Below, piece after piece: positions 1 to 15,409 of a stretch of DNA of 20,155 nt. Numbering within the stretch: position 1 is the stretch's first letter; the number at the start of each line of letters is the position of its first letter. Below the pieces are notes generated by a model that saw only the letters and a program-made list of their open reading frames with translations, was not told the DNA's origin and did no database searches. The translations under genes and the position numbers were made by a program. The DNA comes from a virus: positions 1-20,155 of the IMG/VR virus record IMGVR_UViG_3300032271_000017; one strand, 5' to 3'.

Positions 1-1020
1 AAAAGCAATCCAATTGTGTTTGACAAGCTTAGACGACAATTTCAAGCCGCTATGAAGCAAGGCTTGTTATCTCCAGAGCTTGAAGCAAAGATTAACCATA
101 ACTTAGCTTTGAATTTTGGTGAAGGCGCAAGCATTCGTGATCCCCAAATATGGAACATGGCAAATACGTTTGAAAAACGTAGAGCATTGGCTGAGCTAAT
201 GATGGGACAAGGCATTCCCCCCAAAAAAGGCGGAGTGGCTCTTGGCGGAGAAAAAAGCGGTAACGGGGTAATCTTCCAGCCAACACAGACTTTGATGCAA
301 GAAACTGAACCCAGTCTGCTTCATCCTGAGCATGGCGGTGATATTCCAACATTTGCGGCAGGCCCCCGCTTGTTCCAACTGGAGAAGGAAGCCTCATACC
401 GCCCTGACCTGCACCCCGGATTCCCTATGCTGATTCACGGCAAAGACTTGGGCAAGCGCATGAATCCTGTTCCGACCGAAACCTATTTGCCTGACTGGCA
501 TAAAGCATTCAAGAAGTCTGCTGGTGGACGCAAGCCCGGTTACTATGATCTGGCGCTGGGTGTCAAAGGCCAAGGCTTGCCATCGCAAGAACTGACTGAC
601 GCATATATCCGCCATTTGATGACAGAAGGCTTCAAGCGCGGCGGCGCAGTGCGCATGGCTGATGGCGGTCAGGTTGATGTCCAAAGCATTGGCGTAGAAG
701 AAGCCCCCAGCATGGATGTCAAGGCGTATTTCCCGCCCCGTCCTGCCCAAGGTAATATGTTGCCCGTTGGTGGAATACAGCAGGCTCAGCAGGCTCCTAT
801 GCAGCCTCCTCCGCCTGTACCTAATCAGCAGCCCCCGCAGCAACCAAGCCCTGCGCCAATTCAGGCTGGTCAACCGCCTAGCAACATCCTCCAGATGACT
901 CGTCAGGGTCAGGCTATGAATGCCATGACACCTCCGCAGATGGCTCGTGGCGGTCATATTAATCGTGATGCCATGATGCTTGCACTTATGAACCGCAACA
1001 AGAAAGTAAAGTATGGATGA
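1..1020 (+). CDS. C-terminal part of a large phage protein with basic-glycine motifs (5' end outside window)
   Basis: The reading frame is open from the first base, so the GTG at 16 is probably internal and the gene starts upstream. I do not recognise a catalytic domain. The first ~215 visible residues look folded, with charged helices and a Pro/Tyr-rich part containing RPDLHPGFP and KPGYYDLALGVKGQG. Next come two Gly-rich basic motifs (FKRGGAV and MADGGQV, DNA 631-681) and a Pro/Gln-rich linker (about 733-895). The tail carries MARGGHI and ends basic, NRNKKVKYG. An earlier KKGGVALGG lies at about 224-250. The end overlaps the portal start by 8 bases, so the two are translationally coupled. 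From memory, environmental phages carry very large multi-domain proteins with this kind of C-terminus next to the portal, possibly injected or internal virion proteins. That role is inference. Confidence 0.7.
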   Translation, partial: KSNPIVFDKLRRQFQAAMKQGLLSPELEAKINHNLALNFGEGASIRDPQIWNMANTFEKRRALAELMMGQGIPPKKGGVALGGEKSGNGVIFQPTQTLMQETEPSLLHPEHGGDIPTFAAGPRLFQLEKEASYRPDLHPGFPMLIHGKDLGKRMNPVPTETYLPDWHKAFKKSAGGRKPGYYDLALGVKGQGLPSQELTDAYIRHLMTEGFKRGGAVRMADGGQVDVQSIGVEEAPSMDVKAYFPPRPAQGNMLPVGGIQQAQQAPMQPPPPVPNQQPPQQPSPAPIQAGQPPSNILQMTRQGQAMNAMTPPQMARGGHINRDAMMLALMNRNKKVKYG

Positions 1021-3460
1021 CTTGCAAGAAAACGAAGATGGTTCAGTTGACGTTGAGATGCCGGATCTGACAACTGAAGTGCAGGAGATGCCTGATGGCT
1101 CTGCTGTGGTGACGATGGAAGATATTGAAGGCCCGCAAGAATCGCCTGACTTCTATGAAAACATGGCTGAGACCATCAATCCACGCGATTTGGATGGCAT
1201 TGCTATGCGCTATCTGGAGTTGCTAGAGAAGGATAAAGAAGCCCGCAAGGAGCGCGACAAGAAGTATGAAGAGGGCTTGAAGCGCACAGGCATGGGCAAT
1301 GATGCCCCCGGCGGCGCTACCTTTGCTGGAGCTTCTAAGGTCGTTCACCCCGCTATGGCTGAGGGATGCGTGGACTTTGCTGCCCGCGCAATGAAGGAAT
1401 TGTTCCCGCCTGATGGCCCCGTCCGTACAAAGATTATGGGCAAGGTTGACGACGAGAAGACCGAACGCGCTGAACGCAAGCGTGACTACATGAACTGGCA
1501 GATCACCGAGCAGATTGAAGAGTTCCGTGACGAGCAAGAACAACTGTTGACCCAGCTTCCGCTTGGCGGCTCACAATACTTCAAGATCTGGTACGACGAG
1601 CATAAGAAGCGCCCGTGCGTTGAGTTCTTGCCGATTGACCGTGTGATCCTGCCATTTGCAGCCACCAACTTCTACACCGCACAACGCGCCGCTGACGTGA
1701 ACGAAATCACCCAGTGGGAATTCAAGCGTCGTGTCAAATCCGGCATGTACCGTGATGTTGATTTTGTCCGCGCCACTCAAGAGATAACCCCAACTTCCGC
1801 CCAGAAGGCCAACAATAAGATTGAAGGCAAGCAGTGGGATGACAATGAAGATGGCGTACGCAAAGTTTTCCACATCTACACATGGCTGGAACTGGAAGAC
1901 GACAAGTTTTCCAAAGGTGAGTCCGCACCCTACATTTTGATGGTCGATGAGATCACCACTGAAGTCGTTGGCCTGTACCGCAACTGGGAAGAGACAGACA
2001 AGACAATGACCAAGCTGGATTGGATTGTCGAGTTCAAATTCATCCCATGGCGCGGCGTTTACGCCATCGGGCTACCTCACCTTATCGGCGGTCTTTCAGC
2101 GGCCCTGACGGGCTCATTGCGGGCCCTGCTGGACTCTGCGCACATCAACAACGCTGCCACCATGCTCAAGCTCAAGGGAGCCAAGATGTCGGGCCAGTCC
2201 CAGCAAGTGGACGTGACTCAGGTGGCTGAGATTGAGGCGGCTCCCGGCGTGGATGACATCCGCAAAATTGCCATGCCGATGCCGTTTAACCCGCCGTCGC
2301 AAGTCCTGTTTGAGCTTTTGGGTTGGCTGGATAACGCCGCCAAGGGCGTGGTGACGACCGCAGAAGAGAAAATTGCTGACGTAAACGCTAATTCGCCCGT
2401 TGGAACTACACAGGCGTTGATTGAGCAGGGAGCCGTGGTGTTCTCAGCCATTCACGCACGACTGCACGACAGTCAGGCGCGGGTTCTGAAGATCCTTGGT
2501 CGCTTGAATCGCTGGTATTTGGACGAGCAGCACAAGGGTGAAGTGGTTGCTGACCTTGAAATCAGCCGTGAAGACTTCGCCACCAACACCGATGTAGTGC
2601 CTGTAAGTGACCCGCACATCTTCTCTGAGACCCAGCGCATGGCTCAGATGCAGGCTGTGATGCAATTGATGGGCAGCAACCCCGATGTCTTCAACAAAAA
2701 GAAGGTCATTGAGCGGTTTTTGAAGCAGATGAAGGTTCCCGCCATCAATGAATTGATGATTGACGTGCCTGCGCCTGAGATGCGTACCATCGCTGACGAG
2801 AATGCGGCTATGTCTATTGGTCAGCCAGCCTATGCATACATCCAGCAAGACCACATTGCCCACATTCAAGGGCATTTGCAGTTTGCCAACGACCCTGCAT
2901 ATGGTTCTAACCCGTTCTTTGCGCCGCAATTTACTCCGCATGCCATCGAACACATCAAGCAGCACATGACTTTGTGGTACTTGAACCGCATGAATGGCTA
3001 TGTACAGCAGTCTCGCGGTGGAAAACCTGTGACTAACTATGAGGATGTGAAGCTGACAGGCATCATTGACCAAGTATTTGCCGCTGTTGGGCAGCATGTA
3101 AGCTTGGATACGCAAGAAGTGTTCCAGCAAATCATGCCGCAACTGCAACAACTGATGCAGCGCAACCAACAATTGCAGCAGCCACCTCAGTTGCCCCCGG
3201 ATGCACAGGTTGTCAAGGACACCAGCATGGCGGAAACCCAGCGCAAGGCTCAAAAAGACCAAGCAGACGCTCAATTTGCGGCCCAAAAGTTGCAAGCCGA
3301 GCAACAAGAGCACCAGATGGACATCCAAACAAAGATTGCCATTGAAAATGCAAAGCTGTCGCACCAAACTATCCAAAATTTGGGTCAGGCGCAGTTAGAT
3401 ATGGCGCAAAACCCGCCACAACCACCACAACCACCACAAGGAGCGCCAAATGGCATCTGA
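1013..3460 (+). CDS. Portal protein (P22-like, podovirus type)
   Basis: Portal proteins form the dodecameric ring at one capsid vertex through which DNA is packaged and ejected. The 815 residues are close in size to the large P22-type portals. The acidic N-terminus (residues 1-60) is followed by a helical stretch with FAARAMKELFPPDGPVRTKI, which I recognise from portal proteins of environmental podoviruses. The core contains WRGVYAIGLPHLIGG and a later helical crown-like part. Residues about 705-735 are Gln/Pro-rich (LQQLMQRNQQLQQPPQ). Residues about 736-796 are a strongly charged heptad-like coiled coil, followed by a short Pro-Gln tail. The gene overlaps its upstream neighbour by 8 bases, and the ATG of the next small gene lies inside its 3' end. 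Position before scaffold and capsid genes supports the call. No terminase is visible; it would be expected upstream. Confidence 0.92.
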   Translation: MDDLQENEDGSVDVEMPDLTTEVQEMPDGSAVVTMEDIEGPQESPDFYENMAETINPRDLDGIAMRYLELLEKDKEARKERDKKYEEGLKRTGMGNDAPGGATFAGASKVVHPAMAEGCVDFAARAMKELFPPDGPVRTKIMGKVDDEKTERAERKRDYMNWQITEQIEEFRDEQEQLLTQLPLGGSQYFKIWYDEHKKRPCVEFLPIDRVILPFAATNFYTAQRAADVNEITQWEFKRRVKSGMYRDVDFVRATQEITPTSAQKANNKIEGKQWDDNEDGVRKVFHIYTWLELEDDKFSKGESAPYILMVDEITTEVVGLYRNWEETDKTMTKLDWIVEFKFIPWRGVYAIGLPHLIGGLSAALTGSLRALLDSAHINNAATMLKLKGAKMSGQSQQVDVTQVAEIEAAPGVDDIRKIAMPMPFNPPSQVLFELLGWLDNAAKGVVTTAEEKIADVNANSPVGTTQALIEQGAVVFSAIHARLHDSQARVLKILGRLNRWYLDEQHKGEVVADLEISREDFATNTDVVPVSDPHIFSETQRMAQMQAVMQLMGSNPDVFNKKKVIERFLKQMKVPAINELMIDVPAPEMRTIADENAAMSIGQPAYAYIQQDHIAHIQGHLQFANDPAYGSNPFFAPQFTPHAIEHIKQHMTLWYLNRMNGYVQQSRGGKPVTNYEDVKLTGIIDQVFAAVGQHVSLDTQEVFQQIMPQLQQLMQRNQQLQQPPQLPPDAQVVKDTSMAETQRKAQKDQADAQFAAQKLQAEQQEHQMDIQTKIAIENAKLSHQTIQNLGQAQLDMAQNPPQPPQPPQGAPNGI

Positions 3461-3614
3461 TAACGAACAAAAAAGCGTCAATGTGCCCATGCACAAGCGT
3501 CTTGCCATGGGCGAGAAGCTGGACGGTGCAAGCTTGCAGCCCAAAGGCGGCAAATCCACCGAGTCTAAACCTCACAAACCCCAAGGCGGCTTGTCTGCAC
3601 TGAAGAAAAAATGA
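3450..3614 (+). CDS. Small basic phage protein, 54 aa, unknown function
   Basis: This short gene lies between portal and scaffold. Its ATG sits within the last codons of the portal gene and has a good ribosome binding site (AAGGAG at 3438-3443). Its TGA is overlapped by the next ATG in an ATGA junction at 3611-3614. The product begins MASDNEQKSVNVPMHKRLA, is rich in Lys, Gly and Ser, and has a PKGGKS stretch near residue 32 and an LSALKKK end. It carries no signal peptide or membrane segment. The PKGGKS stretch resembles the basic-glycine motif seen in other proteins of this window. I recognise no family. The tight coupling on both sides and the low-complexity basic composition suggest a small virion or assembly protein, which is inference. 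Confidence 0.75.
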   Translation: MASDNEQKSVNVPMHKRLAMGEKLDGASLQPKGGKSTESKPHKPQGGLSALKKK

Positions 3615-3787
3615 CATCCGAACTGATCCACATGATCAAGCTTCGGCAGGCTGAGATAGGTGTCTCATTGGCTGAGGGTAATGCCTCAACATGGGAGACC
3701 TATCAAAGGATGGTTGGTGAGAACGTAGGACTCGCATGGGTCTTGCAGATGATCAACCAGAAGTTGGAAGAAGAAGACCGGGGTTGA
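3611..3787 (+). CDS. Small helical phage protein, 58 aa, unknown function
   Basis: The start overlaps the previous stop (ATGA), so translation is probably by re-initiation. The product, starting MTSELIHMIKLRQAEIG and ending LQMINQKLEEEDRG, is predicted from composition to be almost entirely helical. The central ETYQRMVGENVGLAW resembles a pattern (aromatic followed by G-x-x-x-G-L) that I remember in short phage proteins at the same place, just after the portal gene; this is memory and not a search result. There are no Cys, signal or membrane segments. A small helical partner of the portal or scaffold is possible but unproven. The following 70 bases to the GroES-like gene hold no separate gene that I can support. 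Confidence 0.75.
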   Translation: MTSELIHMIKLRQAEIGVSLAEGNASTWETYQRMVGENVGLAWVLQMINQKLEEEDRG

Positions 3788-3848
3788 GATACCCCATAAA
3801 TCCGTTGCACTGAAAGATGTGCGTGTTGCGCTGAAATATGCGCGTTTT

Positions 3849-3852
3849 GGAG
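3849..3852 (+). promoter_or_regulatory. Ribosome binding site that sets the GroES-like start
   Basis: GGAG is followed by five A residues and then ATG at 3858. This favours the 147-residue product over an in-frame GTG start at 3819, which has no comparable site in front of it. Confidence 0.75.
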
Positions 3853-3857
3853 AAAAA

Positions 3858-4301
3858 ATGACCGATAACGTAATCCCTATGTTCGGGGGCGATCAAACTG
3901 TGCCGCCTTCAGAAGAACTCAAATGGGCCTTCCCTGATGTACCAGCAGGTCAAAGCCCTTTCGGTGGACGAGTAATTGTCCAACTGCGCCGAATCAAGAA
4001 AAAAGCAGGAATGATCATCATCGTTGATGAGACAAAAGAAAATGAAAAGTGGAACAACATGATTGGCAAAGTCGTGGCGCTGGGCCCGCTCGCCTTCAAG
4101 AACCGCGACACCATGCAGCCATGGCCCGAGGGTACATGGGCGCAAGTTGGTGATTACGTCCGAGTCCCAAAGTGGGGCGGAGACCGTTGGGAACGCCCTG
4201 TTCTTGATGACGAAGATCCCGTCCTGTTTATGACCCTCAATGATCACGAGTTGATTGCCAAGGTCACAGACAACCCGCTTTCATTTAAAGCTTTTGTTTA
4301 A
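3858..4301 (+). CDS. GroES-like co-chaperonin (Cpn10 fold), phage type
   Basis: The product would cap a GroEL-type chaperonin, host or phage, and help fold virion proteins. T4 gp31, needed for T4 capsid protein folding, is the classical example. The 147 residues show the Cpn10 order of elements. GGRVIVQLRRI (about 36-46) matches the first GroES strand. AGMIIIVDETK (about 50-60) sits where the mobile loop with its hydrophobic GroEL-contact tripeptide lies. GKVVALGP (about 70-77) is followed by QVGDYVRVPKWGG (about 96-108), which matches the VGD-I-V strand. PVLFMTLNDHELIAKV (about 121-136) matches the final strands. GroES is about 97 residues, so this version has an extra ~35-residue N-terminus, a longer loop near residue 85 and a C-terminal tail. 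It lies between portal and scaffold, which suggests it serves capsid assembly. Confidence 0.85.
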   Translation: MTDNVIPMFGGDQTVPPSEELKWAFPDVPAGQSPFGGRVIVQLRRIKKKAGMIIIVDETKENEKWNNMIGKVVALGPLAFKNRDTMQPWPEGTWAQVGDYVRVPKWGGDRWERPVLDDEDPVLFMTLNDHELIAKVTDNPLSFKAFV

Positions 4302-4310
4302 GGAGCCATC

Positions 4311-5294
4311 ATGGCAGAAAAAGATAAGCAAGAAATAGAACTGCACGTCAAGGAAGAAAAGGACGGCTCAGCCGTTGTTGATTTGCCCGAGGGCATCGAC
4401 ATGGGTGACGAGCTTGACGAGAAGTTTGAGCAGCCAGAGCCAAAGGTTGAGGCAGATGGCGGCTTGGTCGAGGAGGATGATCCAGACCATCCTGATGACA
4501 CTGACGCTGTTCGTGAGGCCAAACGCGCCCGCCGCAGGTCAAAACGCGCATTGGCTAGAGATACAAACCGCGAGCGTGAGCTTCAACTGTTGCAACTCAA
4601 GCGCCAGAATGAGGAAATGGCCCAGCGCATGGCTGAACTGGAGCGCAAAGCCCAGTATTCAGAACTCAACCAGCTTGACAAGCAGATTGAAGACGAAAAC
4701 CTTCGCCTTGAATACGCTAAGATGAAAATTTCCGAAGCCGCTGCCGTTGGTGACGGGGATGCAATGGTTCAAGCGCAAGAGATGCTGTATGACTCTAAGC
4801 AAAAGTTAAATTCTTTATCTGGAGTTAAGCATCAATACGCCCGTCAAGCACAAGCACCCAAGCAAGAAAGAATTGATCCACGCATGCAAATGCAGGCCAC
4901 AAAGTGGATTGAACGCAATGCTTGGTACAAACCTGACTTAGGTGACACTGACAGCCGCATTGCAAAAAGCGTGGACGAAGAGTTAGTTAAAGAGGGCTGG
5001 AATCCTAATGAGGCAGATTATTGGGATGAGCTTGACAGCCGCTTGCAAAAGTACTTACCCCACCGCTACAATGCCAATGCAGAACAAAATTCGTCTGTGA
5101 GAAAACCGAGGAATGTAGTGGCTAGTTCAGGACGCGAAGCGTCAGCATCTTTTGGTGGATCGAATCGCACCTTTACGCTCTCTCCAGAACATGTGAGAGC
5201 AATCAAGGAGGCGGGAATGTGGGACAACGTGGAAACACGCAACCGCATGATCCGTAGATACGCACAACAAGCCCGAAACATGGAAGGTAATTAA
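4311..5294 (+). CDS. Capsid scaffolding protein
   Basis: Scaffolds direct coat-protein assembly into a procapsid and then leave. The call rests on position between portal and major capsid genes and on protein character. The N-terminal ~65 residues are very acidic, followed by a basic patch (KRARRRSKRALARD, about 70-85). A long coiled coil with few aromatic residues covers about 85-175. The C-terminal part ends in a likely helical, basic segment (FTLSPEHVRAIKEAGMW, then RMIRRYAQQARN). A basic C-terminal helical segment that binds coat protein is known for the P22 scaffold, and I infer a similar role here. The gene has a strong AAGGAG site ten bases before its ATG and follows the GroES-like gene by 9 bases. 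The fold cannot be confirmed from sequence alone, because scaffolds diverge quickly. Confidence 0.8.
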   Translation: MAEKDKQEIELHVKEEKDGSAVVDLPEGIDMGDELDEKFEQPEPKVEADGGLVEEDDPDHPDDTDAVREAKRARRRSKRALARDTNRERELQLLQLKRQNEEMAQRMAELERKAQYSELNQLDKQIEDENLRLEYAKMKISEAAAVGDGDAMVQAQEMLYDSKQKLNSLSGVKHQYARQAQAPKQERIDPRMQMQATKWIERNAWYKPDLGDTDSRIAKSVDEELVKEGWNPNEADYWDELDSRLQKYLPHRYNANAEQNSSVRKPRNVVASSGREASASFGGSNRTFTLSPEHVRAIKEAGMWDNVETRNRMIRRYAQQARNMEGN

Positions 5295-5296
5295 TC

Positions 5297-5845
5297 ATGA
5301 ATGAATCTCGTTTAAAAAAATCTTTGAATGCTGGTGGACGCGAAGACCGCTCAAGTGGGGACGTATCCCGCCAAGCACCTGAAGAAAAGTTCCCCTCAAA
5401 TGATGAACGTCGCAAGATGTGGACTGATGAGTGGACGCAATCGGCAATGCCCAAGACACCCGAAATACCGGGATGGCATCTCTGTTGGCTCTCAACAAAC
5501 AACAGTTACGACAGTATTGAAAAGCGCATGCGTTTAGGATACGTTCCCGTGAAAGCGGATGAGTGTTCTGGATTTGAAAATAATCGCGTCAAGGCTGGCG
5601 AACATGTTGGATATATATCTTGCAACGAGATGTTGCTCTTTAAGATCCCTATGGATGTCTATCAGGATTACATGACTCACTTCCATCACGACATTCCCCG
5701 TGAAGAAGAAGAAAAGGTCAAAATTCAGATAGAGAGCCTGCAAGGTCAGCGAGACAGCAACGGAAAGTCGCTAGTGAGTGTTGAGGGTGATGGAATGGGT
5801 AATTTTAGTCAGCAACCAAGAGCAACACCCGTATTTCACGGGTAA
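5297..5845 (+). CDS. Conserved-looking phage protein of unknown function, 182 aa
   Basis: The ATG follows the scaffold stop by two bases, with GGAAGG at 5282-5287 as a likely binding site inside the scaffold 3' end. The N-terminal ~55 residues are charged and probably disordered. A compact middle follows (IPGWHLCWLSTNN at about 58-70, RLGYVPVKADE at about 79-89, HVGYISCNEMLLFKIP at about 103-118), then a helical part (MDVYQDYMTHFHHD) and a low-complexity tail. The aromatic and Gly pattern is that of a folded domain, but I do not recognise the family. From memory, similar proteins sit between scaffold and capsid genes in environmental podoviruses. It may be a minor capsid or assembly protein; no motif decides this. 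Confidence 0.75.
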   Translation: MNESRLKKSLNAGGREDRSSGDVSRQAPEEKFPSNDERRKMWTDEWTQSAMPKTPEIPGWHLCWLSTNNSYDSIEKRMRLGYVPVKADECSGFENNRVKAGEHVGYISCNEMLLFKIPMDVYQDYMTHFHHDIPREEEEKVKIQIESLQGQRDSNGKSLVSVEGDGMGNFSQQPRATPVFHG

Positions 5846-5865
5846 CTCAAAAAAAGGAGTTTCTT

Positions 5866-6465
5866 ATGTCTAGTACATCCGCTCCGTTTGGTTTGCGCCC
5901 TGCGTTCCACCCTTCTGGTCTGGATCGCGCCCAAGCGCTTGCTAACGGCATCACATCAGGTTATTCCACTCAAATTTTGAAGGGTCAACCTGTCGCTTAC
6001 TCTGCTTCGGCAGGTGTAATTGTTCCTCTCACAACCAATCCCGCTTCAGGCTCTTCAGTTGCTTGGTCTGGCGCATTTGCTGGTGTTGAGTGGACTGACA
6101 CAACTGGTCGTCGTCGCGTGTCCAACTACTGGCCTGCAAGCACTGCATTCCAGACTGGTTCATGCGTTGCTTATTTCTACAACGACAACAACATCGTTTA
6201 TGAAATCCAAGCCGATGGCGCAATGGCTCAAACCACTATTGGTAACGAGTACAACTTCACTAACGTGACTTCTGGTTCTAGCACCACTGGTCTGTCTCAA
6301 GCCACTCTTGGTTCTGCGACAGCCGCTGGTAGCGGTACACAAGGTCAAATGCGTGTTGTCGATCTCGCGCCATATGTGGACAACGCATGGGGGGACTCAT
6401 ACACGATTGTTCGTGTTGTGTGTTCACATTCTCAACTCTTCGGTAGCTTTACTGCTATCGCCTAA
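5866..6465 (+). CDS. Probable capsid accessory or decoration protein, 199 aa
   Basis: A strong AAGGAG site precedes the ATG. The N-terminus (SAPFGLRPAFHPSG) matches a pattern of proteins encoded next to major capsid genes in marine and freshwater phages, as I remember them. The rest is rich in Ser, Thr, Ala and Gly with alternating hydrophobic residues, typical of beta structure: GQPVAYSASAGVIVPL early, SGAFAGVEWTDTTGRRRVSNYW in the middle, DSYTIVRVVCSHSQLFGSF at the end. There are no catalytic signatures or membrane segments. It directly precedes the major capsid gene with a 15-base spacer, so high co-expression is likely. Decoration or cement protein is an inference from place and composition; a minor head protein is the main alternative. 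Confidence 0.7.
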   Translation: MSSTSAPFGLRPAFHPSGLDRAQALANGITSGYSTQILKGQPVAYSASAGVIVPLTTNPASGSSVAWSGAFAGVEWTDTTGRRRVSNYWPASTAFQTGSCVAYFYNDNNIVYEIQADGAMAQTTIGNEYNFTNVTSGSSTTGLSQATLGSATAAGSGTQGQMRVVDLAPYVDNAWGDSYTIVRVVCSHSQLFGSFTAIA

Positions 6466-6480
6466 TTAAGGAGCTAAATT

Positions 6481-7395
6481 ATGGCAGCCCCAATGCGCAG
6501 TACGGACTTTAGAAGCATTGTTGAACCAATTCTCAACGAATGCTTCGATGGAGTCTATGACCAACGTGCCGACGAGTGGAGCCGTGTGTTCCGCGAACAA
6601 GACGGCATTCCCCGCAACTACCACGAAGAGCCTGTCCTTTATGGATTTGGTGCTGCACCCCAGTTGCCTGACGGCACTCCGGTGACATACCAACAAGGTG
6701 GTGTTCTGTTCTTGAAACGCTATGTGTACAAAGTGTATGGCTTGGCCTTCGCTTTGACCAAAGTGTTGTATGAGGACGGCGACCACATCCGCATCGGTCA
6801 GACTTATGCACGTCACTTGGCTCAGTCTTTGGTGGAAACCAAAGAGTTGTTGTCAGCAAACGTGTTGAACACCGCCTTCAACTCAAGCTACCCCGGTGGC
6901 GATGGCGTTTCTTTGATTAGCACTGCTCACCCCATCGTGAACGGTACTTTCAGCAACCAGTTGTCTACTGCTGCTGTCCTGTCACAGACATCTCTTGAAC
7001 AGATGTTGATTCAGGTTCGCCAAGCAGTTGACAACAACGGCAAGCGTATTCGTCTGGTTCCCCGCCAATTGGTGGTGGCTCCCGGCAATATCTTCCAAGC
7101 CGAAGTGTTGTTGAAATCTGTTCTGCGTACTGGTAACGCAAACAACGACATCAACCCCGTTAAGTCTATCGGCCTGTTGGACGAAGGCGCAGCGGTTCTG
7201 TCACGTTTGTCTTCCAGCACTGCATGGTGGGTTCAGACCGACGCTCCAGAGGGCATGAAGCTCCTGATGCGCCGTCGTCTGGAGAAGACCATGGAAGGTG
7301 ACTTCGAGACTGACTCTATGCGCTACAAAGCGACAGAGCGTTACGACGTTGGCTTCACTGATCCTCGTGCTATGTACGGCACACCCGGCGCTTAA
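6481..7395 (+). CDS. Major capsid protein (Mu gpT-like, HK97-fold)
   Basis: This is the main shell subunit. The 304 residues agree in length with Mu-like major head subunits. Features I recognise are EWSRVFREQDG near residue 32, NVLNTAFNSSYPGGDG (127-142) followed by STAHP (147-151), and a C-terminal half with LVVAPGNIFQAEVLLKS, GLLDEGAAVLSRLSS and WWVQTD. The Mu-like family has the same order of F/Y-x-GGDG, S-T-x-HP and a late aspartate-rich C-terminus. The gene has an AAGGAG site and is followed within 15 bases by a strong hairpin terminator, common after highly expressed capsid genes. The C-terminal DVGFTDPRAMYGTPGA completes the protein, with no sign of truncation. Confidence 0.9.
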   Translation: MAAPMRSTDFRSIVEPILNECFDGVYDQRADEWSRVFREQDGIPRNYHEEPVLYGFGAAPQLPDGTPVTYQQGGVLFLKRYVYKVYGLAFALTKVLYEDGDHIRIGQTYARHLAQSLVETKELLSANVLNTAFNSSYPGGDGVSLISTAHPIVNGTFSNQLSTAAVLSQTSLEQMLIQVRQAVDNNGKRIRLVPRQLVVAPGNIFQAEVLLKSVLRTGNANNDINPVKSIGLLDEGAAVLSRLSSSTAWWVQTDAPEGMKLLMRRRLEKTMEGDFETDSMRYKATERYDVGFTDPRAMYGTPGA

Positions 7396-7409
7396 TCAAC
7401 GCCGAAACG

Positions 7410-7440
7410 GGGGAGGGGTCACAAGCTCCTCCCCATTTTT
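7410..7440 (+). terminator. Rho-independent terminator after the major capsid gene
   Basis: A nine-pair stem (7410-7418 with 7426-7434, one G-U pair) has a seven-base loop and is followed by A and five T. It lies between the capsid gene and the next structural gene, so it could set a step down in transcription after the capsid protein. Confidence 0.85.
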
Positions 7441-7472
7441 AAATCCTCGTCAAACTTTTCAAGGAGAAGACG

Positions 7473-8471
7473 ATGCCTCAATTTTCAGATGACCTTTTCT
7501 TAGGCCCTGCCCAAACTTACATGGGTACTGGCATTCGCCCCTATACCACCACAGCAACTGGCGGTACTGGCGGCTCTTCCTCAAGCACTCTTACCATCAC
7601 CGCATTGAACCAAGGCGCTCCAATTGTTGTTGGTATGTATATTGACGGTTCAAGCGTAACTGATGGCACTTACATTACCGCTTTTGGTACTGGCAATGGT
7701 GGCACTGGAACGTACACACTGAACCAAGCAATCAATATTGCAAACACTACTGCATTGACCTTGCATGGCAACATTCAATTTGATGACCCAGCCCTGATGG
7801 ATTTGGGTGTTGGCCCTATTGGTCGTATCTATGTTTGGGATGTCATTCCTCAAGCATTGGCGACCAACAACATTGCCGCATCACAGACTCCTGCTGCTTC
7901 TGGCAATTTGACTTTGACTGCTGGCACTTCAGTCAAGTCTGTGGTTCGTCCAGACGGAACTACTGTTCTGCAACTTGACTTGCCTCGCGCTGTTCAGTTG
8001 ACTACAGCATCTGGCACGATCTCTACAAGCCGTACCTTGACTGTTTCTGGTTACGACTACTACGGTCAGCCAATGAGCGAAGCAATCGCAACTGGCACTA
8101 CCTCTTCTGCCGTGGCTAACGTTAAGGGCAAAAAAGCATTCTTCCAAATCTCTAGCATTGCAATCAGCGGCGCTTTGCCAGTGGCAATCACTGTTGGCAC
8201 TACTGACATTTTGGGTCTGCCTGTTCGCGTGTTTAACGTGGCATACCTTGCAAGCGTTAAGAGCAACAACACATTGGCACAAGATGCTGGTACGTTTGTA
8301 GCCGCAGACACTGCGACTGCTACAACCACTACTGGTGATGTTCGCGGTACATATGTCCCGGCAACTGCATCGGACGGTATTGTTCGTACAGTGATGGGTA
8401 TTTTGTTGCCCGGCATCGCGGTTGGCCCCAATGCAACCCGCACTGGCGCTCTTGGTGTTACACAGGCCTAA
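7473..8471 (+). CDS. Beta-rich virion structural protein with an inserted small module, 332 aa
   Basis: The ATG follows AAGGAG by six bases. The protein is rich in Thr, Ser, Ala and Gly with alternating beta-type patterns and no enzymatic motif. Residues 1-30 lead into a module (about 39-97) that reads LTITALNQGAPIVVGMYIDG, then ITAFGTGNGGTGTYTL, and resumes in HGNIQFDDPALMDLGVGPIG. That module resembles short beta modules I remember in many phage structural proteins, so it looks inserted. The remainder (about 100-332) has two strand-rich parts, including YDYYGQPMSEAIATG and FFQISSIAISGALPVAITV. Its position just after the capsid terminator suggests a head or head-tail virion protein. Exact role unknown. 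Confidence 0.75.
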   Translation: MPQFSDDLFLGPAQTYMGTGIRPYTTTATGGTGGSSSSTLTITALNQGAPIVVGMYIDGSSVTDGTYITAFGTGNGGTGTYTLNQAINIANTTALTLHGNIQFDDPALMDLGVGPIGRIYVWDVIPQALATNNIAASQTPAASGNLTLTAGTSVKSVVRPDGTTVLQLDLPRAVQLTTASGTISTSRTLTVSGYDYYGQPMSEAIATGTTSSAVANVKGKKAFFQISSIAISGALPVAITVGTTDILGLPVRVFNVAYLASVKSNNTLAQDAGTFVAADTATATTTTGDVRGTYVPATASDGIVRTVMGILLPGIAVGPNATRTGALGVTQA

Positions 8472-8483
8472 TAGGAGGTTTTC

Positions 8484-9890
8484 ATGGCTACTAAAAACAG
8501 TGCAGGGGGCTTCAAGCAGATGCCCAAAATGGAGACCACCGAGCCTTCAGTCATCTTAAAGATGAAAAAAGGTGGTCATGTGAATACCAAGCACCTCGAG
8601 AAGGGTGAGCATGGTCACATGCCAATGACGAGCAATCCAAAGTATCGTGAGTCAATGGAAAGCGAAGAGGGAAATTCACCTAAAAAGCCTTCCATGAGCG
8701 AGCGCAAAAAAGCGATGAACCCCAACTTCAAAGGCGGCGGTAAAGTTGAGCATAAGGCTGATGGCGGCATGATGGGCAACCCTCAAGCAATGGCTGCAAT
8801 GGCTAATCCAGCCATCCGCGCGGCTATGGCAAAACGCGCCTTGGCTAAACGTGCAATGATGGCTCAGCCCGGCGGCGCACCAATGGCTCAACCTATGGCC
8901 TCCCCAGCAATGGGCGCAGGCTTGCAGCCCGGCATGAAAAAGGGCGGCAAAGCTACTGCTAAAGAGCTTCACAAGCTTGAAAAAGAACTCAAGCACCACG
9001 AGCATATGAAGGCAGGCAAAGCTCATCACGGCTTGAAGTCTGGCGGCTTGGCTAAGAAGGGTGAAGCCTTTGAAGTCAAGACAACTATTGAGCATGACGA
9101 GAAGCCTTATGTCCGCACCAAGATGCATGACGGCGACAAAACTGATCGTGCGCACGGTACTGGTGATGTCAAGATGGGCAACGCAGGCGGCTTCAAGCAT
9201 GGCGGTCACGCACACAAGAAACATCACTATGCTGCTGGTGGCACGATTGAGGGCAATGAAGGCCCTTACGAAGACACAATGATGCATGATGGCGATCACA
9301 ATGACTCTGCTCACGGAACTGGCGGTGTTCGCATGGCTAATGCTGGCGGTTTCAAGCACGGAGGCAAGGCCAAGCACCATTACGCTCACGGCGGAACCAT
9401 TGAGCATGACGGCAATTGGGAAAACCGCCCTGCTGATACTGCCAAGCCCGGCAAGACCAACACCAAGACTGGCGAAGTCAAGGAGTCCAATGCTGGCGGC
9501 TACAAGCACGGAGGTAAAGCCTCAAAAAAAGCCTACGCCACGGGGGGAAGTGTTAACGATGAGGGCAAGGCAGTAAAAATGCCTCGTCACTTCGTTTCTC
9601 AACCCGTGGCAAACAGCTTGCAATCCGGCACTTTTAAGCATGGCGGCAAGGTAAAAAAGTTTGATGATGGCGGCTCTACAAGCAATGACAAATACACAGT
9701 CAAAGATCCAAAGGCTGTGTCCGACAAAGCAAGCAGAGATCTTGAAGAAGCTTTGAATCCCTTCAGCATGGCAAAAGAGCTTTATGGCAAGGCAAAAGAT
9801 TATTTCACGCCACCTGCCGGGAGCGTAACCAAGACAGAAAAATCTGTTACGGTGGCTCCTAGCAAGAAGCGCGGCGGAAAAGTCTGTTAA
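8484..9890 (+). CDS. Gly/Lys/His-rich protein with tandem 51-53 aa repeats, unknown function
   Basis: Strong AGGAGG site before the ATG. The 468 residues are low in aromatic and aliphatic residues and very rich in Gly, Lys, His, Ala and Met. The basic-glycine motif occurs at least eight times, for example KKGGHV (28-33), GGGKVEHKADGG (84-95), KKGGKA (152-157), FKHGGHA (237-243), FKHGGKA (290-296), YKHGGKA (340-346), FKHGGKV (384-390) and the C-terminal KRGGKVC. Residues 201-253, 254-304 and 305-355 are three related repeats, each starting TIE, with NAGG[FY]KHGG in the middle and ending GG. His clusters lie near residue 170 (LKHHEHM) and at 244-249 (HKKHHY). There is an Ala/Met-rich helical stretch at about 97-128. 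Probably disordered and basic. Location among virion genes suggests a virion or assembly component. No enzyme, signal peptide or membrane segment seen. Confidence 0.8.
   Translation: MATKNSAGGFKQMPKMETTEPSVILKMKKGGHVNTKHLEKGEHGHMPMTSNPKYRESMESEEGNSPKKPSMSERKKAMNPNFKGGGKVEHKADGGMMGNPQAMAAMANPAIRAAMAKRALAKRAMMAQPGGAPMAQPMASPAMGAGLQPGMKKGGKATAKELHKLEKELKHHEHMKAGKAHHGLKSGGLAKKGEAFEVKTTIEHDEKPYVRTKMHDGDKTDRAHGTGDVKMGNAGGFKHGGHAHKKHHYAAGGTIEGNEGPYEDTMMHDGDHNDSAHGTGGVRMANAGGFKHGGKAKHHYAHGGTIEHDGNWENRPADTAKPGKTNTKTGEVKESNAGGYKHGGKASKKAYATGGSVNDEGKAVKMPRHFVSQPVANSLQSGTFKHGGKVKKFDDGGSTSNDKYTVKDPKAVSDKASRDLEEALNPFSMAKELYGKAKDYFTPPAGSVTKTEKSVTVAPSKKRGGKVC
9084..9548 (+). repeat. Three tandem in-frame protein repeats (53, 51, 51 aa)
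   Basis: Units at 9084-9242, 9243-9395 and 9396-9548 encode residues 201-253, 254-304 and 305-355. All share TIE at the start, an acidic/His-Asp part, the NAGG[FY]KHGG core and an aromatic-Ala-x-GG end. The first two also share MHDGD and AHGTG. The third has lost these and carries an NWENRPADTAKPGKT stretch instead. Confidence 0.85.
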
Positions 9891-9895
9891 ATCCG

Positions 9896-9920
9896 GCGGG
9901 GGCTCAGGCCCCTGCTTTTT
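9896..9920 (+). terminator. Rho-independent terminator after the Gly/Lys/His-rich gene
   Basis: An eight-pair GC-rich stem (9896-9903 with 9908-9915, one G-U pair) has a four-base TCAG loop and a tail of five T. It starts just after the stop codon and precedes the next ribosome binding site (AAGGAT at 9922-9927). Confidence 0.8.
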
Positions 9921-9932
9921 CAAGGATAAATT

Positions 9933-10733
9933 ATGAGTAACGGCATTGTTTCGTCAATCACTCGCGGCGGTCAATTTGAGCCATTTGACCTTCAAGTTTC
10001 AAGAAATCAAATCTTGGGCCACAGCCCGGCAAATATATTTGCTTATGGCACTACGCCAGCAACAGCAGGTTTGTTTAGAACTGTTTGGGAAAACATGTCA
10101 ACCACTGACTATGTGTTTCCAACTTCCGCAAGCACAATGAATTTGGTTAGCACTGTAGGCACAGACACAGCAACAATCACTATTGTTGGTACAGATGCAA
10201 GCTATAACTTAATCACAGAAAACCTTGTGTTGAACGGTACGACAAACGTCCCAACCGTTAACTCATATTTCAGAATCAATAACATATCCGTCTCTGTTGG
10301 CTCTGCAACAAACCCTTCAGGTGTAATTACACTGTCGGTCAGTTCAACTGTTTATGCTCAAATAAACACCGCTACTGTCAACGGCGTAACCGCAAGCATT
10401 GGCACATCACAGATGGGTGTATATACCGTACCAAAGGGGTACACATTTTATGGGTACAGATACGGCGCATACTCTTCTTTCAACGGCAATAGCGCCAACT
10501 ACACCACATACAGAGCATTGACAAACGCTTCATCGGGCGTTCAAAGAGTTATTGTTCAAACTCCTTTCAATACCACCTATGAAGTGCAGCGACACTTTCC
10601 GTTCCCTTATGTGGCTGGTACTGATTTGAGATTCCAAGTTGCAAGTAGCGCAGCCACTGCGGCTGTTGTAAGCATCAACATTGGCGGTGTTTTGGTAGAA
10701 AACAGCAACTTGTTGACTGTACCGGAAGGATAA
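9933..10733 (+). CDS. Beta-rich virion structural protein, 266 aa
   Basis: The start is set by AAGGAT six bases upstream of the ATG. The N-terminus ([21 protein letters not shown]) and the middle ([49 protein letters not shown]) follow an order I remember from structural proteins of environmental short-tailed phages. The C-terminal part contains [18 protein letters not shown] and a final strand. The whole protein is Thr/Asn/Ser/Val-rich with beta alternation and lacks catalytic or membrane features. It lies between a terminator and the cluster of small basic genes, and its stop is three bases before the next ATG. A virion protein on the head or tail is likely; the site is unknown. Confidence 0.75.
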
Positions 10734-10735
10734 TT

Positions 10736-10894
10736 ATGCCTTTGATCAAATCAAAATCTGAAAAAGCATTCAAGAAGAATATTGCCACTGAGGTCAAGGC
10801 TGGTAAACCAGTCAAGCAGGCCGTGGCAATCGCATACAGCACCAAACGCGCCGCACCAAAGAAGAAGGCTGATGGTGGAAAGTGTGAGTGGTAA
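10736..10894 (+). CDS. Small basic phage protein, 52 aa, ending GGKCEW
   Basis: The ATG follows the previous stop by two bases, with GGAAGGA upstream. The product ([20 protein letters not shown] at the start, then [17 protein letters not shown]) is highly basic and probably helical. The K-A-G-K-P[10 protein letters not shown] pattern is one I remember in many environmental phage small proteins. It ends [11 protein letters not shown], which combines the window's recurrent DGGK motif with Cys and a terminal Trp. The stop overlaps an alternative GTG of the next gene, but the next true start is probably the ATG at 10897. Function unknown; the basic helix could bind DNA, which is inference. Confidence 0.82.
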
Positions 10895-10896
10895 TC

Positions 10897-11292
10897 ATGT
10901 CAAAAAGGGGGCTATATGCCAATATCAATGCAAAACGCGAAAGAATCGCTGAAGGCTCTGGGGAGCGCATGCGCAAGCCGGGTTCAAAAGGCGCTCCAAC
11001 TGCTGAAGCTTTTAAAGAGTCAGCCAAAACAGCAAAATACGCAAAAGGCGGAGTAAGCCTTGCTGTTGGTCGCGGTGAGAAATTACCCGTCTCCAAAGGC
11101 GCTGGATTGACCGAGAAGGGTCGAGAAAAGTACAACCGAGAGACAGGTAGCCATCTGAAGGCTCCGCAGCCTCAAGGCGGTTCTCGTAAAGATTCTTTTT
11201 GCGCAAGAATGAGCGGCGTAGTTGAGCATTCAAAGGGCGATGCTGAGAGAGCAAAGGCATCGTTGAAGCGCTGGAAATGTCCCGGCTGGTAA
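10897..11292 (+). CDS. Small basic phage protein, 131 aa, DUF6321-like C-terminus
   Basis: I chose the ATG at 10897 over an in-frame GTG at 10888, which lies inside the previous gene. The N-terminal half (KRGLYANINAKRERIAEGSG, then MRKPGSKGAPTAEAFKESAK) is basic and followed by YAKGGVS, another copy of the recurrent motif. The C-terminal half (GAGLTEKGREKYNRETGS, KDSFCARMSGVVEH, KASLKRWKCPGW) resembles, from memory, a phage family of unknown function with the same LT-KG, SFCARM and RW-C elements that I believe is DUF6321. Two Cys are in these conserved elements. The protein is strongly basic with no membrane segment. Neighbouring small genes share the terminal Trp. Function unknown, nucleic-acid or capsid binding is possible. 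Confidence 0.82.
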   Translation: MSKRGLYANINAKRERIAEGSGERMRKPGSKGAPTAEAFKESAKTAKYAKGGVSLAVGRGEKLPVSKGAGLTEKGREKYNRETGSHLKAPQPQGGSRKDSFCARMSGVVEHSKGDAERAKASLKRWKCPGW

Positions 11293-11301
11293 GGAGTTGA
11301 A

Positions 11302-11502
11302 ATGGCCCCCGCACAAGGATCAGCAAACGCAATCGGCGGATCATCATCAGAAGAGAGTGATGTTCCAAGAGCCACTGGCGAAAATGTCGGCGGCTTGATT
11401 CTTGCGGGCCAAAACAATCCTTACAAAAAGGGCGGCAAGGTCAGCTTGAAAACTTGCAAAGTAAAGACGCATCAAAAAAGTAAATCTTCACCCAGTTGGT
11501 AA
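11302..11502 (+). CDS. Small protein, 66 aa, with shared KGGK-LKxC-TH-W C-terminus
   Basis: An AAGGAG site at 11291-11296 precedes the ATG. The N-terminal 35 residues are Gly/Ser/Ala-rich and look disordered. From residue 41 the protein reads YKKGGKVSLKTCKVKTHQKS and ends in Trp. That C-terminal element aligns with the end of the next gene's product (see the repeat entry). Lys, Cys and His in fixed order could bind a ligand or metal, but one Cys and one His are few for a zinc site by themselves. I do not recognise a named family. Confidence 0.78.
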   Translation: MAPAQGSANAIGGSSSEESDVPRATGENVGGLILAGQNNPYKKGGKVSLKTCKVKTHQKSKSSPSW

Positions 11503-11959
11503 AGGAAACATCATGACAATGACAGGTAATTACAAATTAAGCCCGGCTCTTAAAGAAGCAACTGATCGGGCTTCAAAAATGATGGCTGAAGGCAAAGCTG
11601 AAAAAATGCCAGCCCGTGAAGAGACAGAAAGTCGCTTGGCGGCTCGCAAACAAGAAAGCGAAAACGCAGAGCGTGAGGCCGCAAAACGTGACGCGGCTGA
11701 TTTGCCGAACCTTAAGAAGCGCCACGCTGAAATGGAAGCAACCTACAACAAGGGCAAGAACTATGAGTATGCCGACCGAGAGCAAAACCTGTCGGATGAA
11801 GAGCGCTCAGCCCGCGACGTTAAGGGTGGCATGATGAATTTGGCCCAAAGAATCCACAATGTCAAAAAACATGGCTTCAAACAGGGTGGCAAAATCAACT
11901 TAAAAGATTGCGGTGTTTCAACACACGAAAAAAACCCTAAACACAAAAATTGCTGGTGA
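11422..11959 (+). repeat. Related C-terminal coding segments in two adjacent genes
   Basis: The segments 11422-11499 and 11876-11956 encode peptides that align as aromatic-K-x-G-G-K-[VI]-x-L-K-x-C-x-V-x-T-H-x-K, then a variable stretch, then Trp at the C-terminus. The N-terminal parts of the two proteins do not resemble each other. Confidence 0.85.
11513..11959 (+). CDS. Charged helical protein, 148 aa, with shared KGGK-LKxC-TH-W C-terminus
   Basis: AGGAAAC lies before the ATG. Residues about 8-100 are highly charged and probably one or two long helices or a coiled coil (ESRLAARKQESENAEREAAK, then LKKRHAEMEATYNKGKNYEY). After RDVKGGMMNLAQRIHNVKKH, the last 27 residues from 122 read FKQGGKINLKDCGVSTHEKN and end HKNCW. 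This repeats the C-terminal element of the previous gene. Two His and two Cys in this tail could chelate a metal, which is speculation. Placed just before the adaptor gene with an 8-base gap. Possibly a virion-internal or assembly protein. Confidence 0.8.
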   Translation: MTMTGNYKLSPALKEATDRASKMMAEGKAEKMPAREETESRLAARKQESENAEREAAKRDAADLPNLKKRHAEMEATYNKGKNYEYADREQNLSDEERSARDVKGGMMNLAQRIHNVKKHGFKQGGKINLKDCGVSTHEKNPKHKNCW

Positions 11960-11967
11960 GGTAAACA

Positions 11968-13038
11968 ATGGCATATTCAGGCACGATTGGTCAAACAGTC
12001 ATCACAGTTCAAAACCTGATAGATGATGGCGCTCGTCGTGCTGGAAAACTGGCTGAAGAGTTGACTGTTGAGCAAATCCAATCAACAAAACGCGCATTGT
12101 TTTATTTGCTTAGCAACCTGATTAACCAAGGCATACAGTATTTCGCCATTCAAAAGGTTGTTTTGGGTTTAACTCCAAATGACTATGAATATCAGCTTCC
12201 AGTGGGCGGGAATGATGTTTTAAATGCCCTTTATAGAACTTTGACGCGCCCTGTGGGTGGATATGCGTCATCTGCTGGCGGTGTGGTTGGAAATGCTTTT
12301 GATGGCAATTTAAATACCTACTGTCAACAAACGAGTGCGGCGGGAAATATTTCTATTAATTATGGCAATCAAACCAATTACATTGGTTCTATTGGTTTTA
12401 TGCCTTACATTTCTGGCGGCGGAAGTCAGACATGGGACTATGTTTTTGAGTCATCAATTGATGGAACAACTTGGAAAACTTTATATACAGGAACTTCGGT
12501 ATCTGTGACTGATGGACAGTGGGTTTGGCAGGACATTGATCCGGGGGCAAATGTTGCAAATTACCGCATGCGGGCAACTGGCACAACAACTTTGTCATTG
12601 CGTGAGCTTTACTTTGGTACGAATAGCACTGAAATCACAATGGCTAGATTGAACCGTGATGATTACACTAATTTGCCAAACAAAAATTTTACCGCCAATC
12701 AGCCGTACCAGTATTGGTTAAATCGAACGATTCCGCAGGCAACCATTACGATATGGCCCACCCCATCAGATCCGTTTGTCCAGATGGTGGTGTGGTACTC
12801 AGCCCAGATTCAGGATGTGGGGGCATTGAGCGGTCAATTGGCTATTCCTGATCGCTGGTTGATGGCAATCCAAAACATGCTGGCTCACCAGATGGCGCAG
12901 ATTTTGCCCGGAGTTGATGTGGGTCGTGTTCAATACTTGGAAGGTCAAGCCGAAAAGTATTTCAACATGGCAGAGCAGGAAGAACGCGACAAATCGCCTA
13001 TTTACCTTGCGCCAAACATTGGCGTGTACACGAGGTAA
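11968..13038 (+). CDS. Head-to-tail adaptor/neck protein with inserted discoidin-like domain
   Basis: The outer parts (residues 1-96 and about 219-356) look like the helical neck adaptors of podoviruses. ELTVEQIQSTKRALFYLLSN and later IPDRWLMAIQNMLAHQMAQI are long helices, and the C-terminus has EKYFNMAEQEERDKSPIYLA. P22 gp4-like proteins are the nearest known role, by inference. Residues about 97-218 (DNA 12256-12621) read like an F5/8 type C (discoidin) domain: NAFDGNLNTYC, SINYG, SIGFMPYIS, ESSIDGTTWKTLYTG, NYRMRATGTTTLSLRELYFG. Such domains usually bind sugars or lipids. The insert sits between YRTLTRP and the conserved-looking ARLNRDDYTNLPNKNF. GAGGTAAACA precedes the ATG. Confidence 0.78.
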   Translation: MAYSGTIGQTVITVQNLIDDGARRAGKLAEELTVEQIQSTKRALFYLLSNLINQGIQYFAIQKVVLGLTPNDYEYQLPVGGNDVLNALYRTLTRPVGGYASSAGGVVGNAFDGNLNTYCQQTSAAGNISINYGNQTNYIGSIGFMPYISGGGSQTWDYVFESSIDGTTWKTLYTGTSVSVTDGQWVWQDIDPGANVANYRMRATGTTTLSLRELYFGTNSTEITMARLNRDDYTNLPNKNFTANQPYQYWLNRTIPQATITIWPTPSDPFVQMVVWYSAQIQDVGALSGQLAIPDRWLMAIQNMLAHQMAQILPGVDVGRVQYLEGQAEKYFNMAEQEERDKSPIYLAPNIGVYTR

Positions 13039-15407: not shown

Positions 15408-15409
15408 TC

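Follow-up and report, generated by a model that had tools for sequence, protein, structure and literature searches.

The capsid targeting sequences of phage T4 are N-terminal, 10 residues long, and processed after targeting (PMC9026906). DarB of phage P1 also has an N-terminal capsid targeting sequence, and no consensus among the Dar proteins was found (PMC9024508). Encapsulin cargo loading peptides are about 10 residues long and mostly C-terminal, and they bind the luminal face of the shell (PMC7355545). The polyvalent proteins have been described as a class, and it has been argued that their phage members are packaged and injected (PMC5512222).

Here we describe a C-terminal peptide of 23 residues, called tag A, together with a shorter core motif that it contains. 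Both occur in a virus record, a 20,155-base piece of a tailed phage from the environment. This whole stretch is called the window below. The best reading of tag A is that it works like the T4 sequences, the DarB signal and the encapsulin peptides.

As in T4, a short peptide is common to several small accessory proteins, and the T4 peptides serve delivery to the head. Unlike in T4, this peptide is C-terminal and 23 residues long. The T4 sequences are also cleaved by the prohead protease, whereas none was recognised in the head genes tested here. The likeness to DarB is one of proposed role, since it is by its signal that DarB, a large injected protein, enters the head; the differences are that a consensus is here common to many proteins, and that the tag is C-terminal. 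As with encapsulins, a short conserved C-terminal peptide sits on unrelated proteins encoded near a shell gene, but this is a phage head module (portal; terminase in relatives) and not a cellular nanocompartment. The encapsulin docking pocket belongs to a shell of the HK97 fold; the capsid protein of the window is similar to major head proteins in PHROGs. The large carriers of the motif resemble polyvalent proteins: in relatives they are multi-domain, several have ART-PolyVal, PcfJ or PBECR5, and they are encoded beside the portal and terminase. PMC5512222 nowhere uses the words glycine, linker or low complexity, and the recurrent motif found here at protein joints is an addition to the description of this class. 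A literature search found no paper on such a shared C-terminal phage motif.

The window and its relatives

The features of the window are listed in Table 1. Its relatives are a freshwater group of phages, from which 80 loci were fetched using the capsid protein as query (91-98% identity, among the matches listed). Sampling went by the capsid protein and one DNA pattern only, and gene calls are longest ORFs. All locus counts are phylogenetically dependent. Because the loci are related, motif counts across them are not independent, and related sequences enter the fold enrichments repeatedly.

Among the matches listed, the capsid protein (6481-7395) is 90-99% identical across many contigs from many lakes, and the neighbouring genes are hypervariable. 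One contig (L029) has an open frame of 316 aa at 10034-10984; it runs antisense to the capsid gene and is probably a by-product of codon usage. The GroES-like gene is annotated too in relatives at about 37-42% capsid identity. The phrog_2423 and DUF6321 modules (10736-11292) are recurrent. In cyanophages and pelagiphages, DUF6321 either stands alone or forms the end of a larger protein (231 phage records), and no paper naming it was found in the literature search. Positions 15374-18022 encode a long Ser/Thr/Gly-rich tail-type protein, and the GC content of this DNA is about 0.38, versus about 0.5 in the head module.

Table 1 Features of the window, in order of position.
Feature	Position	Strand	Remarks
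Large mosaic protein, C-terminal part	1..1020	+	In relatives, encoded between terminase and portal
Core doublet	631..675	+	FKRGGAV (631-651) and MADGGQV (655-675), in the large protein where two modules join
Class C tag	940..1017	+	C-terminus of the large protein; MARGGHINRDAMMLALMNRNKKVKYG; consists of the core and a short, basic, helix-like stretch
Portal	1013-3460		phrog_1216
Small genes	between portal and GroES-like gene		
54-aa protein	3450..3614	+	Doubtful motif carrier, weak PKGGKS
GroES-like co-chaperonin gene	3819-4301		Within the head module
Probable scaffold	starts 4311		
Major capsid protein	6481..7395	+	PHROG similarity to major head proteins
Structural-looking protein	starts 7473		
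GKH (Gly/Lys/His) protein	8484..9890	+	Multi-copy carrier
GKH core copies	8562, 8727, 8934, 9192, 9228, 9351, 9381, 9501, 9534, 9633	+	10 copies, 21 nt each
GKH C-terminus	9864-9887	+	KKRGGKVC
Further protein	starts 9933		Between the GKH and phrog_2423 genes
Small basic protein	10736..10894	+	phrog_2423
Short C-terminal variant	10865-10891	+	KADGGKCEW on the phrog_2423 protein; relatives have class B tails ending CW
DUF6321 protein	10888..11292	+	phrog_16028 and others; adjoins tagged genes in relatives
Small tagged protein, 66 aa	11302..11502	+	No family match
Tag A on 66-aa protein	11422..11499	+	YKKGGKVSLKTCKVKTHQKSKSSPSW; reaches stop codon
Small tagged protein, 148 aa	11513..11959	+	Helical body; no significant family match
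Tag A on 148-aa protein	11876..11956	+	FKQGGKINLKDCGVSTHEKNPKHKNCW; reaches stop codon; predicted disordered after helical body
Tail gene	11968..13038	+	Named tail adaptor in MW202545; directly 3' of the tagged cassette in relatives
Long tail-type genes	3' of the 11968 tail gene		

The core motif

A preliminary description of the window had reported a short basic-glycine motif in at least six unrelated proteins. All peptides that it quoted are found in the window sequence. In a strict form, [FYM][KRHDA]xGGx[VIALC], the motif has 15 copies in the 23 proteins of the window, where shuffling within proteins leads one to expect 0.37; the maximum among 2000 shuffles was 4. A motif no more frequent than composition predicts had been named as grounds for dropping the idea, and what is found lies far above the shuffled expectation.

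The strict copies are in four carriers: three in the first gene, ten in the GKH protein, and one each in the genes at 11302 and 11513. Some of the other copies listed earlier are weak. KKGGVAL at 223 has no aromatic residue. PKGGKS in the 3450 gene is not of the general form, and the usual tail of that family is ..GGLAxAKKK. YAKGGVS (11038-11058, in the DUF6321 protein) is a single internal copy, and of the 51 members of that family 9 have the motif. The peptide YQQGGVL of the capsid protein was rejected as a copy; it is inherited, being one fixed heptamer in all 68 sequences.

For families built from the window and the related loci, the core pattern used was [FYMH][KARTS]xGG[^G][VIAMC]. The GKH family has 394 copies versus 6.8 expected, and the large upstream family has 99 versus 4.0. 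The core is absent from the portal family (0 versus 1.1 expected) and from the capsid family (0 versus 0.6), and the tail family is not enriched (2 versus 3.6). With a looser motif, 408 copies are counted over 63 of 64 GKH members, where 19 are expected, and 117 over 53 of 58 in the large upstream family, where the expectation is 13.8; portal and tail families do not rise above chance. Distant relatives, with capsid identities of about 43-86%, have 56 copies versus 5.6 expected, at 19 loci of which most were picked for having copies. Six near-complete contigs have the core on their late strand, and the opposite strand has a single copy in all of them together.

The consensus of the core is [Y/F/M]-[K/A]-x-G-G-x-[V/I/A]. 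With position 2 left free in the search pattern, K or A stands there in 96% of the GKH copies and 81% of the large-protein copies. The heptamers of the large proteins are close to neutral, with a mean net charge of +0.19, so the word 'basic' is wrong as a general description.

Large mosaic proteins and the GKH protein

The first gene, described before as truncated, is the C-terminal part of a mosaic protein of about 1000 residues, encoded just upstream of the portal gene. Its relatives are mosaic proteins too, of roughly 700-1500 residues. Some of the 26 that were scanned have recognisable domains: GP88 (4), ART-PolyVal (3), PcfJ (3), PBECR5, SLT and ASCH. In one locus (L036) a single large protein has two effector-type domains. 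The window's own fragment had no Pfam match. When the 26 are aligned, four columns are nearly invariant, and two of these are the GG of the core.

Within the large proteins, internal ends of homology blocks are enriched 3.2-fold within 25 aa of a core. Random positions gave 1.03 (sd 0.16, maximum 1.49 of 500) and other GG pairs 1.33. Joints are often linkers, and therefore part of this enrichment may reflect linker placement. The large carriers are probable injected effector proteins. Their domains are in part of the kinds that PMC5512222 calls capsid-packaged and injected, which counts in favour of a docking tag.

The GKH family keeps an N-terminus like MGQFKPMVKMMTTEPSVILKLKKGGKV, a stretch GTFKxGGxV and a C-terminus KKRGGxxC, with about six core copies per protein on average. 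The GKH protein may be a hub, or simply the most heavily tagged cargo.

C-terminal tags

The genes at 11302 and 11513 do contain the motif as first reported, but there it is only the start of an element that runs to the stop codon. This element, tag A, reads [Y/F][K/A]xGGK[I/V][N/S]LxxCxVSTxxKxKKxxNW-COOH, and the 23-residue peptide is nearly constant. A pattern that is blind to position, GGKxxLxxCxVxT, matched 55 IMG/VR stretches, and all 75 of its ORF matches lie 23 to 25 residues before the stop. A profile made from 55 distinct tails was then run on 181 loci. It matched 126 ORFs, and 120 of these matches end at most 2 residues from the C-terminus, which is the enrichment at C-termini that had been proposed as a check.

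Once the tag is removed, the protein bodies fall into 18 BLAST clusters (E<1e-3); this is an upper figure, because short disordered bodies could hide remote homology. Ten tagged bodies were compared with PHROGs and matched no family. AlphaFold models of 11 relatives of the 11513 protein have helices within residues 11-121 and a low-confidence tail that spans the tag. This tail is predicted to be disordered after the helical body, with a pLDDT of about 45-55. Searching a phage collection by tblastn gave no match for the tag peptides, a weak result as queries of 23-28 residues are too short, and none for a whole 137-aa tagged distant relative. Searches of solved structures with DUF6321, capsid, tagged-body and tail queries returned nothing useful.

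A listing of C-termini contains several classes of tag. Tails of class A end in ..NW or ..CW, and class B tails are short, ..GGKVxxCW. Class C, on the last large protein, is ..GGxVxxxxDxMRxxLxxxxKKAK. Class C', in the gene preceding the last large protein, is ..GGxVTHAHHLxIEERPL, and a sample of 12 places it on 6 body clusters. The ending ..LxIEERPL is a second C-terminal signature, carried by several different proteins whose genes lie immediately before that of the large protein (L005 641-1417, L034 488-1018, L070 3-2588). In a distant relative (L237), the proteins at 498-863 and 1077-1490 share a C-terminus with a GG core, GGxVRGQ.., ending FKGIF or FRGIF; this suggests further tag classes elsewhere.

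The preliminary description had offered three functions: a packaging signal, a docking peptide, or a protease site. A protease that cuts at or near the GG would split apart the modules of the large, polyprotein-like proteins and shorten the small proteins at their tails, possibly once targeting is complete, as in T4. Proteases commonly recognise di-glycine, and the core does sit at the module joints of large proteins. But the most conserved part of tag A runs from after the GG to the terminal Trp, standalone tagged proteins end 23 residues past the GG, and comparing a set of head genes with PHROGs, Pfam and NCBIfam brought up no head-maturation protease. For these reasons a processing site fits less well than a packaging or docking signal, which fits best of the three. 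The GKH protein would moreover fall into about ten pieces. We consider processing unlikely.

Binding or condensation of nucleic acid is another candidate role. Stickers made of glycine, basic and aromatic residues would bind the packaged DNA, or GKH and the tagged proteins would condense together. The GKH protein has a high content of G, K and H, the mean net charge of tag A is +3.7, and small basic proteins are neighbours. Set against this, the cores of large proteins are near neutral and often have D or E at position 3. For non-specific binding, the fixed V/I/A at position 7, the fixed L, C, V and T and the terminal W would all be superfluous, and so would the fixed distance to the C-terminus. 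This role too is improbable, and a shade more so than processing.

Selection on the tag

At invariant tag positions the codons vary synonymously, and third codon positions vary freely. Within families, pS is 0.61 for the tag and 0.64 for the body, and pN is 0.17 and 0.33. The ratio pN/pS is 0.28 for the tag versus 0.52 for the body. The tag is under purifying selection at the protein level.

Gene junctions are uniform. The stop of the tag overlaps the probable ribosome-binding site of the next gene (TAAGGA), and the ATG follows about 9 nt on. Such junctions (stop plus GGA, then ATG) in an otherwise variable cassette could mean that the conserved 3' ends are recombination anchors for cassette swapping, and that the peptide has no role. 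The synonymous sites of the tag are as diverged as those of the bodies, while the amino acids are kept. A Trp codon is not required for the TAAGGA site, and at the terminal position (W in 81, F in 7, C in 1) Trp is replaced mainly by Phe. An explanation of tag conservation at the DNA level is rejected on the codon data, which largely refute the anchors; we see very little chance for them.

The likeness of tags on different proteins is 0.52 within one contig and 0.54 between contigs, and 0.72 within the same protein family. Tags on one contig are no more alike than those across contigs, and those of one family are more alike, so the tags are old and kept, not recently copied.

The whole pattern could in principle be an artefact of composition and descent, in which glycine-rich linkers and shared ancestry produce it without any function. 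Carriers are indeed related across loci, and their counts are not independent. The shuffle tests, the 18 body clusters, and a pN/pS lower in the tag than in the body all speak against an artefact, which is refuted for tag A and overall the least probable account; it may still explain the weak copies at 3450 and 11038.

Position and lineage

In the 20 loci that were drawn, tagged genes are 3' of GKH, usually 3' of DUF6321, and 5' of the tail gene, in a variable cassette. The maximum is four tagged genes on one contig, with three drawn in tandem directly before the tail gene. In ten larger records, the tag profile matches this same cassette downstream of the capsid gene. It also has two weak matches in large proteins (frames of 1609 and 1221 aa), to the first ten tag positions only. 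A further match, weak and partial, falls in a frame interrupted by a stop.

This position raises a further possibility: the tag could serve something other than virion entry, anchoring proteins to one late structure or host factor, for example a tail adaptor or the membrane, or controlling their stability. The cassette directly precedes a tail gene, and C-terminal peptides with a terminal aromatic residue are plausible docking ligands. Against docking of this kind, the domains of some large carriers are like those of packaged effectors. We rate its chances as low, on a par with those of a protease site.

A capsid gene is present in 14 of 19 tag-bearing records, at 90-99% identity, and the remaining five are fragments of 15-30 kb. 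Tag A thus appears to belong to one major-capsid lineage. GKH is present at 54 of 60 loci with a capsid identity of at least 90%, at 2 of 19 at 70-90%, and at 0 of 16 below that. Both GKH and tag A are found at 12 loci, GKH alone at 34, tag A alone at 1, and neither at 26 (Fisher p 0.024); this association proves little, as it tracks capsid phylogeny. The nearest cultured relatives, the Caulobacter RW group with 78% capsid identity, have neither GKH nor the tag. Metagenome bins in which the capsid protein has matches are mostly betaproteobacterial. Virion proteomics of this lineage was not found in the literature search.

A possible docking tag

On unrelated proteins of the late region, the window and its relatives have a C-terminal element that is portable and maintained by selection, and its core lies at the joints of large proteins. 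The suggestion of a portable tag is well supported by the C-terminal position, the 18 body clusters, the purifying selection and the core at module joints. We give an even chance to the reading that it is a docking tag by which accessory proteins enter the phage particle while the head is being assembled.

As a docking tag, it would hang from its protein as a flexible tail and attach, within the head under assembly, to a partner that is always the same. Candidates are the capsid protein, the scaffold, the portal, the tail adaptor, or GKH as a hub. The major capsid protein is one such candidate; the fold prediction made for it, in search of a docking pocket, had a pLDDT of 35 and was too poor for use. 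We infer a single common partner, rather than observe one, since no more than about seven positions are common to the core, tag A and class C. With one fixed partner, a single address would load different cargos, including effectors of the polyvalent type meant for injection. Where cargo genes fuse, tags would remain as joints between modules, and repeated copies of the core would raise avidity.

A wider proposal is that this is general cargo sorting in phage heads. A multi-copy GKH hub and a shared C-terminal code, made of the core and an extension particular to each class, would load an exchangeable set of unrelated effectors, and the motif would mark former cargos that have been fused into polyvalent proteins. 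This is possible but less likely than not, and we put it forward tentatively.

Little is known outside T4 and P1 about how phage proteins are chosen to be packed and injected. A signal that can be read from sequence would allow the injected proteins of uncultured phages to be listed. The tagged cassettes would be places to look for new counter-defence effectors, and the tag could possibly be used to load chosen proteins into phage heads. The finding also suggests that large polyvalent proteins grow through the fusion of tagged cargos.
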